A stretch of 41,821 nucleotides of DNA from a virus: the IMG/VR virus record IMGVR_UViG_3300034190_000128, positions 1 through 41,821 of that record. One strand, given 5' to 3'. Every line of letters starts with the position of its first letter. Position 1 is the first letter of the stretch. The notes under the pieces were generated by a model. It was not told the DNA's origin. It saw only the letters and a list, made by a program, of their open reading frames with translations, and did no database searches. A program made the translations under genes and the position numbers. Positions 3,454-30,129 of this stretch are shown here, piece by piece.

Positions 3454-6400
3454 ATGGGTGTTTATCAATACATCGACCCACAAACCGGGCAAGACTATAA
3501 CTTTACTATCGCCGGGGATGCACCTTCAAACACTGAGTTTGCTCAGATAGCTCAGATTCTTGAACAAGATAGAGCTGGTTTTTCTACTGAATTTGAAGAG
3601 ACGTTTGGTGAAGCCCCCGAAGAAATAGATGACGGCACTGCCATTGGTCGTGGCTATGAGCGCGGTACAAGGCAAATCAGGCAAGCATTCGGCGAGACAC
3701 TAGGTACTATTGGTGAACAGTCAGGTCTTGGGTTCCTTGCAAACTATGGACAAGGTGTAGAAGAACGCGCTCGTCAAGAGCTAGGCGAACTGCTTCTTGA
3801 GCAGCCAGCACGTATGCAGTCTACTGACGTTGATGGGTTTGGCTCGGCGTTAACATACGCAGGGGAACTTGTTGGTGAGCAAATCCCACAGCTTGGTCTA
3901 GGTCTCGGTGCCGCCGTTGCAGCGCCCATTTTAGCACCCGCCGCGCTAACCACCACTGCACTTGGCTCTTTTGCTGTAGGTGCTACCGCAGCAGCAGGTA
4001 TAACCGCGCCGATTTTGTTTGGTAACAACATCCAACGCCAAGAAGACGAAGTCGCCGCAGGTAAAAAAGCATCCGTTGATGTCGGCGATGCGTTGACTGC
4101 TACATTCGGCCAAGCAACACTTGAAGGTGTGTCTGACAAGTTATTGCTGGGTCTAGGTAAACCTCTTCTAGGTGTGGGTAAAGCTGGATGGAAAGGTCTG
4201 TTTTTACGAACTACAAACCGCGCGGGTACAGGTTACGCAACCGAGTCACTAACTGAAGTCGGCCAACAGATGATGGAGCGAGCGCAAGCTGGCCTACCTA
4301 TCGACAGCGAAGATGCCATTGCAGAGTATCGTGAAGCCGCTATTGCAGGTGGCCTAATCGGTGGTGGTACTCGTGCTACAATCGGATCATTCGGCGAGCG
4401 TGGCGATACCGTCCCAGTCGAAACGGGAACCACAGAGACTACTCCCCCTGCACCTGTAGAGCCAGAAGCTGAACCAGAAGCGGTGCAAGCCGCTGTAGAA
4501 ACAGCAGTTGAAGAACAAGTATCTCCAGCACAGCAGACAGGAGAACGGAACGCCGCAGACCCCGCGCCACTTGAAGGCGCAGCGGAGCAAACGGAAGAAC
4601 AGCGTGCAGTAGACGCTGCAGTAGTAGCGACAGATGCAGCTACGCCAAGCGCAGCGTTAGTTAAAGAAGAGGCTAACCTCGAAGGTGAGGTGGCCCGTAT
4701 GAAGGCCAAAGCCACTAAAGCGGCGCAAGCCAAGACTCAAGAATATTTACCGGACCTTGAACCTGTAGCACAAGAAGATCGCACCGCTGCTTTAGAGAGC
4801 GAGCAGACTGGTAAAAAGATTGAGGTGGGAGCAACCGAAACCGTTGAGGCGGCGCAAGGCACAGAAATAACTAAAGAGATGTTGGACGGTATAGGTGTAT
4901 TTGGTCGCGCTCCGTTGCGTAAACGGGTAATAGGTAAAAACCTCACCGATCCTGAAGTCCAACAGCAGCTACGGAGCTACGCAAAAAATTCAAATGTGCG
5001 GAAGAAAATACCTGAACTAGAGGCTCGGGTAGAAGGGTTGTTAGGAGGTGTCAGCGATGCTGGAACTAGACCAACAGGAACTGGAGATGGCGCTGAAGGT
5101 AGTGGACAAGGCGTGGTCGGAAGCGGAAGGGGTATACTTGAACGTGGAGATACCCCCGAGCTTGCAACACCTGACCAAGGATCAGTGGGAACAAGTGTGC
5201 CTGTTTCTGGACCACCTGCAGTGGGTGCAGGACCGCAGCCCGATACATTAGAAGCCGAACCAGAGGTAACTCCTGACGAGCAAGGCGTAGCGGCAGTCCA
5301 ACAACTCGCAGAGCAAGCCACAGCTACGCCCGTACAACAACCCATACAACAAGCCCCCGCTCCGCAGCCTGACTTACGAAACGCTGCACCGGGCCAAGAA
5401 CTAGGTACGGCGCGGCAACTTATACCGGGGACTAAAACACCTGTAAATAAACAGACATTACAGCCGACAGGGGCACCGCAATTTGTTGACGATGCGTTTG
5501 AAGCACCACGTACTGAACCAGTAATCGGCGCTTCTCTACCACAAGCTGATATACAGGCGATGGAGACTGAACAAAATGCAGTTGCCCAAGCCGAGCTTGA
5601 TCGTAGGTTTGCGTTTAAGAAAAATGAGGGGGTACGAGAGTATCACGACACGCAAGTAAATGAGCGGTCTCTACCGGACATTACCACTTCGACAGAAAAA
5701 GATACTATTTTAGCCCTACTTGAAACTCCAGATACGCAGTTGAAGGGCGAAGCAAACGCTAATGCTAGAGCAGCAAAACTGTTCTTTAAGCGGTTCCGTA
5801 GGCCCGTAGACGCCCTTGATGAAATGGGTTCGGTCAGTGCAAAGGGTCCAATTCAGCAGGCCCGAGAAGGCGAAAAAGTTTCGGGTGGGGACATAGACGG
5901 TAGGTTCTATTACGGGCCAAAAGAATTTAAGTTTTATGAGGGTATGACACAAGAAGCCGCCATGGAAGCACGTAGGTGGGTAAAGGCCAACATGTCTAAC
6001 AGCGCCATGGCTGTTACCCGTGACGCGGCTGTGTTAGCCAGACGTGATACGTCTAAGTATAACCCGTCCGATGCCTACATTGGTGTGGTTAAGGCCGCTA
6101 AGTCTATTCAGCAAAAAGAGGATAACGCCCTCAAGAACCAGCTAAACCGCTACCTTGCATCGCCAGAAGTAAACTATCAAGCCCCTGCAGACTTAGATCA
6201 ATCTTTGCGTGCTGAAGCTACAGGACAACTCGTTGGTGAACGCACCGCTGGACCCGTGACTAAAACTTTCAAGCCGGTAAAGGGCCAGACCGCGCTTGAG
6301 TCTTATTTAGCGGGAATAGATTTTAAACGGCGTAAAGTTCGTAGTAACGAAACGGTTGCCGCCGATACATATACGTATACTGACAAAGAAGGTAACGTGT

Positions 6401-19700: not shown

Positions 19701-20204
19701 CTATTCTCCTACTGCTTTATTTTTATCATCGCGCAGCGTATGCACAATGTCTTCCAACGGGGTCATGTCTAACCCAATATGCTCCGCGCAACCACGGAAC
19801 CGTTCAAGCCATGCGGCTAGGCTAGTACCTGCTTGCCTACGCAACTCTGCCTGTGAGTTGGCATCAGTTGGGTCAAACGGTTCGTACCCGCCACCCTCTC
19901 TGCGTTTGGACACAGGAGATATATACGCAGGATACTCCGTCACTTTGATAGCGACCACAGAACTATCTACGTCTTCCGCTTTGGCAACAATCCGTAATCC
20001 AGACGCCATCTGACGCGCCATTTGTATGCGGTGCTGCCGTGCTGCTTCTGCATCATCCATACCGTAGAAGGCAGGGTATGCTTCATGTTCTGGTTGTGTC
20101 GCCAACCAATCAACAAAGTCCGCTGGCACAAACATGTTTGCACCTGTATTTTGCAGGTAATCATCTATGATACGCTGCTTGGTCTTCTTATTAAAACTAG
20201 ACAT
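19701..20204 (-). CDS. Phage protein of unknown function (167 aa)
   Basis: Begins MSSFNKKTKQRIIDDYLQ; the ATG at 20204 follows a good GGAGG. The frame stays open about 320 bases further upstream, but only through the pentamer-periodic tract, whose translation is Arg/Gly-rich nonsense, so the longer version is rejected. The mature sequence is mixed alpha/beta with VPADFVDWLATQPEHEAY and a C-terminal helix RRQAGTSLAAWLERFRG. No family is recognised. It is followed by the DUF6378-like and polymerase genes in the same operon. A palindrome copy (20237-20251) lies in its leader. Confidence 0.6.
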   Translation of the reverse strand: MSSFNKKTKQRIIDDYLQNTGANMFVPADFVDWLATQPEHEAYPAFYGMDDAEAARQHRIQMARQMASGLRIVAKAEDVDSSVVAIKVTEYPAYISPVSKRREGGGYEPFDPTDANSQAELRRQAGTSLAAWLERFRGCAEHIGLDMTPLEDIVHTLRDDKNKAVGE

Positions 20205-20236
20205 ATACTGTCCTCCAAAAAGTTTCTTATGTTTGT

Positions 20237-20251
20237 GTAGTGGGCCACTAC
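20237..20251. repeat. 15-bp palindrome copy 2 (leader)
   Basis: GTAGTGGGCCACTAC; symmetry extends one base each side (T...A). It lies about 20 nt upstream of the GGAGG of the 20204 gene on the - strand. Confidence 0.85.
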
Positions 20252-20280
20252 AGCCCACCACTTGTTTATTAGCTTGACCG

Positions 20281-20820
20281 CCAGAACTGACCGCGCCTCT
20301 CCGAACCATGCCCCGCCTCGACCGCCTAACCCCGCTCCGCCTTAACAGACCAAACCTGAACCGCCTAGACAGACCGCAACTTTCCATACCGTACCCCGCC
20401 TTGACCGCCTCGCCCTGCCTTGACTGACCATACCGAACCTGAACCGCCTCGACCGCCTCGCCCAATCTTGCCTCTCCTCTCCACGACCGCCTTGCCCTGC
20501 CTTGACTGACCATACCATACCTCACAATACCAAGCCTTCCTTATCAGGCCGTAACTCACCAGAACCGCCATGCCACGCCGAACCGTGCCGGACCTCGCCG
20601 TACCCAACCTAAACCGCCCAGCCACACCATACCGCGCCAAAACAAACCGCGCCGAACCGCACCGCACCTAGACCGCCTTGCCAGAACTGATCGCGCCTCG
20701 CCATATCTCTCCTAGCCCCGCCTCGACCGCCGTGCCACGCCAAAACCTACGCCGCCTTGCCTGTCCTATCCATGACCGCCTTTCCTCGCCTAACCTCGCC
20801 CTGCCGCACCGTACCCTGAC
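20281..20820. repeat. ~540-bp pentamer-periodic degenerate repeat tract
   Basis: On the + strand the tract is C-rich and reads as strings of CCNNN five-base units, such as ccgcg-cctct-ccgaa-ccatg-ccccg and ccgaa-ccgca-ccgca. The phase shifts occasionally. Longer blocks recur, for example GCCTTGACTGACCATACC at about 20417 and 20499. Reading frames through it give Arg/Gly/Trp/Tyr-rich text in more than one frame and have no ribosome binding site. I see no gene. It lies inside the leftward operon between the 255-residue protein gene and the 20204 gene. Confidence 0.75.
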
Positions 20821-20843
20821 CGTCTTACCTTGTCCGTGAATTA

Positions 20844-20861
20844 GGGCGGCGTTAACCGCCC
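20844..20861 (-). other. Intercistronic GC hairpin (GGGCGG family)
   Basis: GGGCGG and CCGCCC pair around the 6-nt loop CGTTAA, 7 bases beyond the stop of the gene ending at 20869. No U-tract follows on the - strand. Similar hairpins occur at 22913-22930 and 30642-30663, each shortly after a - strand gene end, suggesting an RNA-stability or processing element. Confidence 0.55.
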
Positions 20862-20868
20862 CTCTTCT

Positions 20869-21636
20869 TTAGGCTGCTCTGCGCAACCGCTCTTCTTGAA
20901 TGAACTGCATCAACTCTCGTGTCTGATCGTCAGCGCACTCTGGATGTTCCATAGCCAACTCTTGAACCTCACGCGCTTCCTGCGTGATGTCATCCCAGAT
21001 TTCTTGCTGATCTCCCATGTCCTCAGAACTTGCTACAGAGAAAGTGCCGTATGAACCGCGACCCTTCTCCTGTCTGAAGTCACCGATACCGACAATCGTA
21101 CCAGCGTTCTGTAACAGGGACACAATAGAGAACGCACTCAGAGTTGGCGTCACGAACTTTATATCCACCTCTGCACACCAGTTGGGTAAGTACGCACGGG
21201 TACGCACATCAGGTGTCTTGTTCATATCCGCAGACCGAACGATATCCATCTTCAAGTAAGGCTTACCCCAGATTTGGATTTGGCTCTCCGGTAAGAAGAT
21301 TAACCGCTGAACACTTGTTTTCTTGATGCCTTCTGTCTCAAGCGCAGCGGTAGCCATCGCGCCCTTTACACCCGCAGCAGGGAAGCACAGATGTGTATCA
21401 CCTGTAGACTTCTTGTACACACTATCCCGAAACTCCTGCTCGGGGTTGTGCTTTATGTTCTTCTTCTCAGCCGCAGTTTTCTTGCCGCCGCCGACTAACA
21501 GGTCACGCCACGCCTTTGCGCCCATGCTGTTAAAGTACATCGGGGTTTGCCCGATCATCCGCAACTTGATACGTCCTTGCTTTAACGCATGGATTTCCAT
21601 TGTAGCTGGTGCGGTTGGTTTCTTTAATATAGCCAT
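20869..21636 (-). CDS. Conserved-looking phage protein, possible RAMP-like fold (255 aa)
   Basis: Starts MAILKKPTAPATMEIHALKQG after GGAGAATGAC; the in-frame ATG 12 bases earlier is part of the leader. Features include QTPMYFNSMGAKAWRDLL, a FPAAGVKGAMATAAL block and a Gly-rich GIGDFRQEKGRGSYGTF motif at about residues 190-206. The FPAAGVKGAM block and the late Gly-rich loop recall RAMP/Cas7-like ferredoxin folds, but this is weak pattern resemblance. The C-terminal 40 residues are acidic and helical. The gene is large for this part of the operon and sits just upstream of the pentamer tract. No catalytic residues are evident. Confidence 0.65.
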   Translation of the reverse strand: MAILKKPTAPATMEIHALKQGRIKLRMIGQTPMYFNSMGAKAWRDLLVGGGKKTAAEKKNIKHNPEQEFRDSVYKKSTGDTHLCFPAAGVKGAMATAALETEGIKKTSVQRLIFLPESQIQIWGKPYLKMDIVRSADMNKTPDVRTRAYLPNWCAEVDIKFVTPTLSAFSIVSLLQNAGTIVGIGDFRQEKGRGSYGTFSVASSEDMGDQQEIWDDITQEAREVQELAMEHPECADDQTRELMQFIQEERLRRAA

Positions 21637-25527: not shown

Positions 25528-26766
25528 TTACATATCCCTTGATTTGATGTGTACTGTCTTGCCAACGTCTGCGGTCTTGCCGCTGTCCATCACGCACCAC
25601 AACACAGGCATAGTCCACTGACCCCAGCCACCAAACAGGTGACCATCTGTCAGCACGATACATGCTTGCGCGTTGATGTTGTTGTCCCGAATGTAATCGG
25701 TAACGCAATCGACATCAGTGCCGCCGCCACCCGCTGGCTTGGTTGATTGTACGAGAGTATCGAGATCACTAGCGTCATACGTCTCGTCACGACATATCCT
25801 CGTGTCCCAATACATCAGGCGTACTTTCTCAGGGTGTACAGTATCGCATATCGATTTGACCTCGGACAGAAACGCAGACAACTCACGCTGCCCAATAGAC
25901 CCAGATGTGTCGATAGCCACGATCAACTCACCGACCTGTTCGGTGATACCGCTTGGCATATACATACCACTCGACAAGTATCTGCGGTTGGGTCTGCGGT
26001 AAGTAGAGTAGTCGCTACCCGTGCAAGTATTCTGCACAAACTCACGCAGTGCTTCACGCCAATCGACCTGTGGCTGTAACAGTTCGGCTAGGTCACGATC
26101 ACCACCGCTGCCCATCTTACCTGCAACCAACGCACCTTGGCGGATAGCCTCGTCAATCTCGCGTGCAAGATCGCGCTGCTCGTCGGCTGTTAGTTCTTGC
26201 GCACCATCCCAATCATGCTCGTCGAATGGCTGCTGTCCATTAGGTAGTGAGCCACTACCACCGCCATCGTCGCCATCATCGTTACCTTGTCCGCCACCGT
26301 CGCCATCTTGGTCATCACGCAGAGAGTTGTAGACCTGTGCGCTGTCCATGCCAGCATACTTGGGGTCATAGCATCCGTTCTCCAACACGCCTGTCATAGT
26401 TGCGAAGCCATCTTTGTTGTCGTCAACGATCTTGAGGTTGATAACGTAGTCGTTCGCCATGTTCGCGAGATGTGGGTCTTGCTCGTATAGGTGACGCCAC
26501 GTTGTCAGGTGCTTGAACAGTTTGTGATACACCTCATGCAGTACCAAGAACCTAAGCTCTGCATCGTTAAGCTGCTTTACAAACTCACGTCCATACATCT
26601 CGTCACGCCCATTGGTACATGCGGTTGGTACGGAGTCATCGTCCACTACATTACGGTCACCGATCATCAGCACCCCTGCGAGTGCCGTGTACTTCGGGTT
26701 CCCCATGATAGAGACAACGGCTTTGGTTAGCCGCTGCTCTTCTGTTAGGTTGTTCAACATTAGCAT
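25528..26766 (-). CDS. DUF2201-like metallopeptidase fused to VWA-like domain (412 aa)
   Basis: Residues about 10-150 look like the DUF2201 putative metallopeptidase, with FLVLHEVYHKLFKH (H77, E78, H81) and NMANDYVINLKI. An Asp/Gly linker (151-175) contains an in-frame palindrome copy. Residues about 275-400 form a VWA-like domain with MIDAS residues DTSGSIG (D286, S288, S290), T350-D351 and TDG (D374). Such proteins pair with MoxR-type AAA+ ATPases, which remodel metal-dependent partners; the MoxR gene is two genes upstream. ATG 26766 follows GGAGAAAACAAA. The target in this phage is unknown. Confidence 0.85.
   Translation of the reverse strand: MLMLNNLTEEQRLTKAVVSIMGNPKYTALAGVLMIGDRNVVDDDSVPTACTNGRDEMYGREFVKQLNDAELRFLVLHEVYHKLFKHLTTWRHLYEQDPHLANMANDYVINLKIVDDNKDGFATMTGVLENGCYDPKYAGMDSAQVYNSLRDDQDGDGGGQGNDDGDDGGGSGSLPNGQQPFDEHDWDGAQELTADEQRDLAREIDEAIRQGALVAGKMGSGGDRDLAELLQPQVDWREALREFVQNTCTGSDYSTYRRPNRRYLSSGMYMPSGITEQVGELIVAIDTSGSIGQRELSAFLSEVKSICDTVHPEKVRLMYWDTRICRDETYDASDLDTLVQSTKPAGGGGTDVDCVTDYIRDNNINAQACIVLTDGHLFGGWGQWTMPVLWCVMDSGKTADVGKTVHIKSRDM
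26244..26258. repeat. 15-bp palindrome copy 6 (inside gene)
   Basis: GTAGTGAGCCACTAC in the flexible Asp/Gly-rich linker between the metallopeptidase and VWA domains. It codes within GSGSLP (residues 170-175), a different phase from copy 5. Confidence 0.9.
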
Positions 26767-29719: not shown

Positions 29720-30059
29720 AATGTTCCATCTTATGGTATCGTATGGTGATATATAGCTACAAATATATGGTTAAGTGTTTGTAATATAAGGAATGTTCCA
29801 TTTGTTCCATAATGTTCCACGCTAAGTGCTTGTAATGCAAGGAATGTTCCAATGTTCCGTTGGTATCGGGGAAACACCGGCAATTTTTGGATTTGTGGTG
29901 GGACATGGAATCGCGTGGGAAGGGGGGTCTCTCACGTAGTCAGACTTTTAAACTATGGAACATTAGGAACATTAGGAACATTATAAATAAAACAGTTACT
30001 TGCAAATGGCCTTTTTGGAACTTCTTGCGGGACATTAGGAACATTATTGTGGAACATTA
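29720..30059. other. Candidate replication origin: opposed arrays of AATGTTCCA / TGGAACATT repeats
   Basis: Left arm, AATGTTCCA-type on the + strand: 29720, 29792, 29801 (variant TTTGTTCCA), 29811, 29843 and 29851. Right arm, reversed GGAACATTA: tandem at 29957, 29966 and 29975, then 30029 (variant), 30038 and 30051. Two longer direct repeats (AAGTGYTTGTAATRYAAGG, 29773 and 29824) precede left-arm sites. AT-rich DNA lies at 29730-29790. The arrangement of iteron-like repeats around a ~100-bp centre, next to divergent units, resembles iteron-type origins. No gene is supported here; the NVPNVPNVP frame is a by-product of the repeat. Confidence 0.6.
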
Positions 30060-30129
30060 TAAAAATAAGAGTTCTATCACTGCATACATGCTGTGACGCA
30101 ATGCTGCTCTGATAACTGGCTTCAATCGG

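Follow-up and report, generated by a model that had tools for sequence, protein, structure and literature searches.

A 540-bp tract with degenerate five-base periodicity (positions 20281–20820) lies within a 41,821-nucleotide stretch of viral DNA (IMG/VR record IMGVR_UViG_3300034190_000128; hereafter the window). The tract is very probably the guide-RNA array of a VIPR system carried by a marine phage, probably one of alphaproteobacteria; its guides would be bound by the RAMP protein Vipr encoded next to it and would probably silence the integrating elements of competitors. VIPR is a recently described CRISPR-like system. Vipr is an ancestral RAMP with an RRM core and a G-loop, and its guides, the vrRNAs, are built of GGY/NN pentamers that read DNA with one base skipped per unit (PMC13142463). 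At the level of sequence, this assignment is carried by the unit and module structure of the tract, the RAMP protein, a match between one guide and integrase genes, and the turnover of guides among relatives.

The five-base periodicity, first described in a sequence-only reading of the window, was borne out by autocorrelation. Lag-5 identity of the tract is 0.475, compared with a mean of 0.311 in 2000 dinucleotide shuffles (standard deviation 0.018, maximum 0.372) and 0.310 in the best other 540-bp segment of the 41.8 kb. CCNNNCC pairs number 55 in the tract; shuffles average 22.2 with a maximum of 39, and counts elsewhere in the window do not exceed 9. Autocorrelation peaks at 5, 10, 15, 19/20, 24/25 and 29. 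A plain whole-tract Fourier analysis at period 5, the check proposed in that reading, gave 1.60 against a shuffle maximum of 2.8 and did not rise above controls, because every GGCG unit shifts the phase by one base. The drifting phase described earlier is thus correct and obeys a rule: each slip is a four-base unit, GGCG (GACG once and GGAA once), usually followed by a GT[C/T]NN unit. The longer recurrent blocks are mainly these GGCGGT[C/T]NN boundaries together with similar modules. The periodic units had been read as CCNNN on the plus strand; the periodicity holds, but the relevant strand is the minus strand, the coding strand for both flanking genes, on which the tract reads as successive G(G/T)Y-NN pentamers. 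The tract is also slightly longer than first noted, with a module array at 20279–20820 and a leader reaching 20835.

The gene upstream of the tract (20869–21636, minus strand) encodes a 255-residue Cas7/Csm3-like RAMP with a C-terminal glycine-rich loop, GIGDFRQEKGRGSYG. Its AlphaFold2 model has a predicted local distance difference test (pLDDT) score of 84.1, and all 50 PDB matches listed for the fold are CRISPR effector entries, the best being Csm3 (6ifn_F, E=2.7e-5, probability 1.00); TM-scores are modest, at ~0.4. A PDB profile search with the Vipr family had a single hit, 'SUSP1 Vipr protein' (36pp; E=3.3e-9), and hhalign aligned the family with SUSP1 Vipr at a probability of 97.4 (E 9e-12). 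Pfam yielded no match to this gene, and NCBIfam none above its cut-off; one PHROG, of unknown function, does match. A RAMP gene matching both Csm3/Cas7 and the solved SUSP1 Vipr therefore identifies the region as a VIPR locus. Consistently, non-coding tandem GGY/NN pentamers, relaxed to G(G/T)Y and with hypervariable NN, lie beside vipr. The earlier suggestion that the tract acts as RNA or as a protein-binding array is supported: the array would supply guide RNAs to which the neighbouring RAMP binds. The Vipr gene and the module structure had been missed.

Homologues of the vipr gene were found at 80 viral loci and 54 genome loci, and 95 vipr loci were studied closely. In 86 of the 95, such modules follow vipr downstream on its own strand; most loci scored as array-free by a GG-based scan do, on reading, carry the array with more GT units. 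Module length is exactly 5n+4 nucleotides in 299 of 351 distinct family modules, and most others are 5n+3, with two four-base units. Across 2597 family units, position 1 is G in 95%, position 2 is G in 71% and T in 23%, and position 3 is C or T in 95%, while positions 4–5 are near uniform, that is, free. With NN positions free, the lack of a blastn match between the tract and phages is expected. In most relatives, the array is set off from the vipr stop codon by a G-rich hairpin whose sequence varies.

The strong periodicity and the G-rich strand might also point to a structural DNA element, a recombination site or a transcription roadblock, all of which had been raised from the sequence. None of the three gained support, and the tie of the array to a RAMP gene in those 86 of 95 relatives, nearly always on the vipr strand, together with free NN positions and 5n+4 modules, makes them exceedingly improbable. 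An Rfam search gave nothing that reached gathering thresholds and no match to a hammerhead family, whose ribozymes stand between the guides in hammerhead-interspersed VIPR arrays, and the tract has no identical repeats between unique spacers as in a CRISPR array. Degenerate or repetitive protein-coding sequence could be imagined from an open minus-strand frame (19701–20525) that covers part of the tract. As had been noted, no frame yields a credible protein: no family was matched, five-base units in 5n+4 modules scramble any frame, and the real downstream gene starts near 20201, after the array, as in relatives. The likelihood of a coding tract is thus practically nil.

One guide of the array, module M5 (20615–20673, minus strand; NN = TA GC GC TC GC TT TT GC AT GT TG), has a convincing target. 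Decoded with the published one-base skip, it reads xTA xGC xGC xTC xGC xTT xTT xGC xAT xGT xTG (11 units). Scanning viral contigs with eight of these units gave 94 loci, two of which (L239 and L247, on unrelated contigs) extended to all 11 units with 22 of 22 specified bases matching; in the extension, none scored 5/6 and the others were at most 4/6. By chance, 94/4096 = 0.02 loci would extend fully. Each of the two sites lies antisense to a tyrosine-integrase gene (PF00589, PF22022, PF13356) at the motif HTIANKAEAAY, and the skipped bases fall on codon wobble positions. In the vicinity of the L239 integrase gene are genes for a VapE-like primase-helicase and a bacterial SURF1, and close to the L247 gene are a gene for Prim-Pol and genes for phage tails; these neighbours suggest that the integrases belong to an integrated satellite or prophage.

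Further integrase matches came from broader searches. In 395 Pararhodobacter-family genomes, the M5 pattern with up to two mismatches gave three two-mismatch matches, all in integrases, and the reversed pattern gave none. A comparison of 230 family guides with 8.3 million six-frame residues gave matches in integrase genes only, from two guides at two motifs, and none for shuffled guides. At the protein level, the integrase box II motif TVHGFRSTFRDW is matched by an L003 guide (11/12) and an L005 guide (10/12), and the integrase motif ADWSEIDMDK is matched more weakly by an L024/L027 guide (8/10). The integrase set for these extra motifs was chosen through M5 and is not fully independent, and the sister-phage guides were not used in choosing it. 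Judged from these matches, M5 probably targets the tyrosine integrase gene of rival integrating elements. Because integrase genes abound and M5 is the single decoded guide among the window's dozen or so, its match could be a coincidence, in which case the array would still be VIPR but with other targets. The 22/22 agreement in two unrelated contigs against 0.02 expected among 94 candidates, with other candidates at 4/6 or below, and the sister-phage matches to other integrase motifs, never obtained with shuffles, render such a coincidence unlikely.

Transcription, processing, ribonucleoprotein formation, DNA binding and silencing are proposed here by analogy with the SUSP1 and P. fulva experiments (PMC13142463). 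The array would be transcribed from the minus strand together with vipr, and each module would become a vrRNA-type guide in which G(G/T)Y, the fixed part of each unit, is gripped by Vipr subunits. The remaining two bases, which are free to vary, would pair with every two out of three DNA bases, the third being skipped, and the four-base GGCG unit would terminate each guide and reset the phase. The complex would probably bind genes of competing integrating elements and block their transcription, with M5 directed to a tyrosine integrase gene and the skipped base at the wobble position. A Vipr-bound RNA array could instead target integrase mRNAs, or serve as a decoy or autoregulator, rather than silence DNA: Vipr is similar to Csm3 of the type III CRISPR complexes, which bind RNA, and M5 has the sequence of the integrase antisense strand, which would allow it to pair with the mRNA. 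However, double-stranded DNA is what the Vipr complex of SUSP1 binds, and either strand can be used for its silencing (PMC13142463); the L024/L027 guide, though the weaker match, is in sense orientation and unable to pair with mRNA. We therefore consider RNA targeting or a decoy role very unlikely and favour DNA silencing.

Comparison of close relatives indicates that guides change rapidly at near-constant vipr. The window and L003 share 96.2% DNA identity in vipr and have 1 of 11 modules near-identical; with L005, vipr identity is 94.9% and no module is near-identical. L002 is identical to the window throughout. The pattern resembles spacer turnover, and the combination of near-identical vipr and differing guides across many arrays makes guide acquisition directly testable.

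The array comprises ~12–13 modules, each starting with GT[C/T]NN, continuing in G(G/T)YNN units and closed by the four-base GGCG; all of its parts are on the minus strand. A hairpin (20843–20862; −15.3 kcal/mol, z=−3.8) comes first, after the vipr stop codon and ahead of the array. It is followed by the leader GGACAAGGTAAGACG (20821–20835), which ends in the first four-base unit, GACG, and keeps its position in close relatives. M1 (20777–20820) carries NN = AG AC GC AG GA TA GA AA. M2/M3 (20728–20776) are irregular, with GGCG inside, and are followed by M4 (20674–20727; NN = GA GG TA GA AT GA GC CA CT AA), which is identical in L003/L004. Beyond M5 come M6 (20566–20614; NN = TA TG AC GA CC AC TC GT AT), M7/M8 (20488–20565; 78 nucleotides with the four-base unit GGAA inside), the six-unit M9 (20454–20487) and a 9-nucleotide remnant (20445–20453). 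The remnant precedes M11 (20406–20444; NN = CA TC AT CA AA AG GA), M12 (20362–20405; NN = AA GG AC AT AA GC CT TA), M13 (20323–20361) and M14 (20279–20322; NN = GA GG AT TC GA GC CA CT, reading DGISDAQL). A second hairpin (20237–20261; −17.8 kcal/mol, z=−4.4) lies 3′ of the array. In the array region, hairpins are confined to either end, and neighbouring modules abut directly via GGCG. Modules mostly contain 7–12 units in the family and 6–11 in the window, compared with 9–16 published.

Several observations weigh against the assignment to VIPR or to the proposed targets. The invariant structured 3′ tail that each guide carries in VIPR type II is not found here, and several modules have only 6–8 units, below the published range. 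M5 is the only window guide with a convincing target; M4 and M6 have no full-length match in viral contigs, M4 has no target in the 395 genomes, and the L003 box II guide has no exact DNA match in viral contigs. When all guides were searched against related phages with skips of 0–4, matches were near chance apart from skip 3, where the excess is probably leftover unmasked array. The one-base-skip rule finds support in one window guide, M5, and the skip comparison covers related-phage loci only. M14 matches the DUF2201 homologue of L380 (VDGISDAQLRF) and not the window phage's own allele; as one of 27 matches, unrepeated elsewhere, this candidate target is only suggestive. The window carries a DUF2201 metallopeptidase/VWA gene at 25531–26766 (minus strand).

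Downstream of the array, a candidate vipr-accessory gene (19701–20201, minus strand) encodes a 166-residue protein with a helical N-terminus, a β-hairpin and a long helix (AlphaFold2 pLDDT 88). A homologue lies downstream of vipr in 80 of the 95 loci, many of the exceptions being contig ends, and the partner persists in genomes whose Vipr has ~36–54% identity, the lowest values being ~36–42%. The protein has no Pfam match, no PDB fold match at E<0.001 and no sequence match to SUSP1 vap1. From its conserved position, the gene may be a natural vap candidate. Bacterial Vipr homologues of 36–53% identity (L310–L320) occur in Rhizobiales, Nannocystis, Binatia and others, most with the same 166-residue partner, and some have GGCA-type arrays between vipr and the partner gene.

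Two other features of the window were observed. A shared translation-start box, TGGAGAANAAYATG, precedes five early genes (14242, 16448, 21634, 24098 and 28019, minus strand; expected 0.14), and the true starts are therefore probably the second Met of MENNM. A cluster of short repeats around GGAACATTA, with periods of 8–10 and 22, lies at 29728–30060 in a stretch without long genes.

The VIPR system is already published, and the window locus is a further member. Coming from environmental phages, it is a natural and independent instance of the VIPR code in which the skipped base falls on the codon wobble position, and an integrase makes sense as a target in mobile-element warfare. With the 5n+4/GGCG rule, arrays of this type can also be located and parsed easily in metagenomic data. 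As in the phage-borne SUSP1 VIPR (type II; PMC13142463, PDB 36pp), a RAMP with the same C-terminal G-loop block is accompanied by GGY-NN guide units beside its gene and by a match, here of the guide M5, to an integrating element under the one-base skip; read directly, the SUSP1 sequence has GGYNN runs on both sides of vipr, as published. Unlike in SUSP1, the window guides are arranged head to tail with GGCG between them and without a structured 3′ tail, the unit consensus is relaxed to G(G/T)Y, and the partner gene is unrelated in sequence to vap1. Type III CRISPR-Cas (Csm3) shares the RAMP fold and RNA guidance, but the window has neither CRISPR repeats nor a cas operon, and its guides are read discontinuously.

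The 'staggered arrays with overlapping vrRNAs' mentioned in PMC13142463 (fig. S18) possibly have the same architecture. Relative to that publication, which counts seven types and mentions staggered and other arrays, the tail-less, GGCG-punctuated marine-phage array, its turnover and its integrase targets may be new. Tentatively, and with some doubt, we propose a distinct class of marine-phage VIPR arrays in which guides are delimited by a single four-base unit, GGCG (or GGCA in other arrays), that takes the place of repeat, handle and tail, and in which spacer-like gain and loss of guides tracks resident satellite or prophage integrases, implying an undescribed guide acquisition. GGNNN tracts are common in viral contigs: at least 120 match ten GGNNN units (L082–L201), and 182 of 259 four-base units within these tracts are GGCA, suggesting GGCR as a general guide boundary. 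In the cultured Gordonia phages UmaThurman and Ecliptus, a Vipr-like gene (gp39/gp19, 26–29% identity) is followed by a GGYNN array, as in the window. These tracts lie at 3621–4000 of L203 and 3609–3870 of L204, and that of UmaThurman overlaps the annotated hypothetical gene 40, which is possibly spurious. Their four-base units are GGCA whereas those of the window are GGCG.
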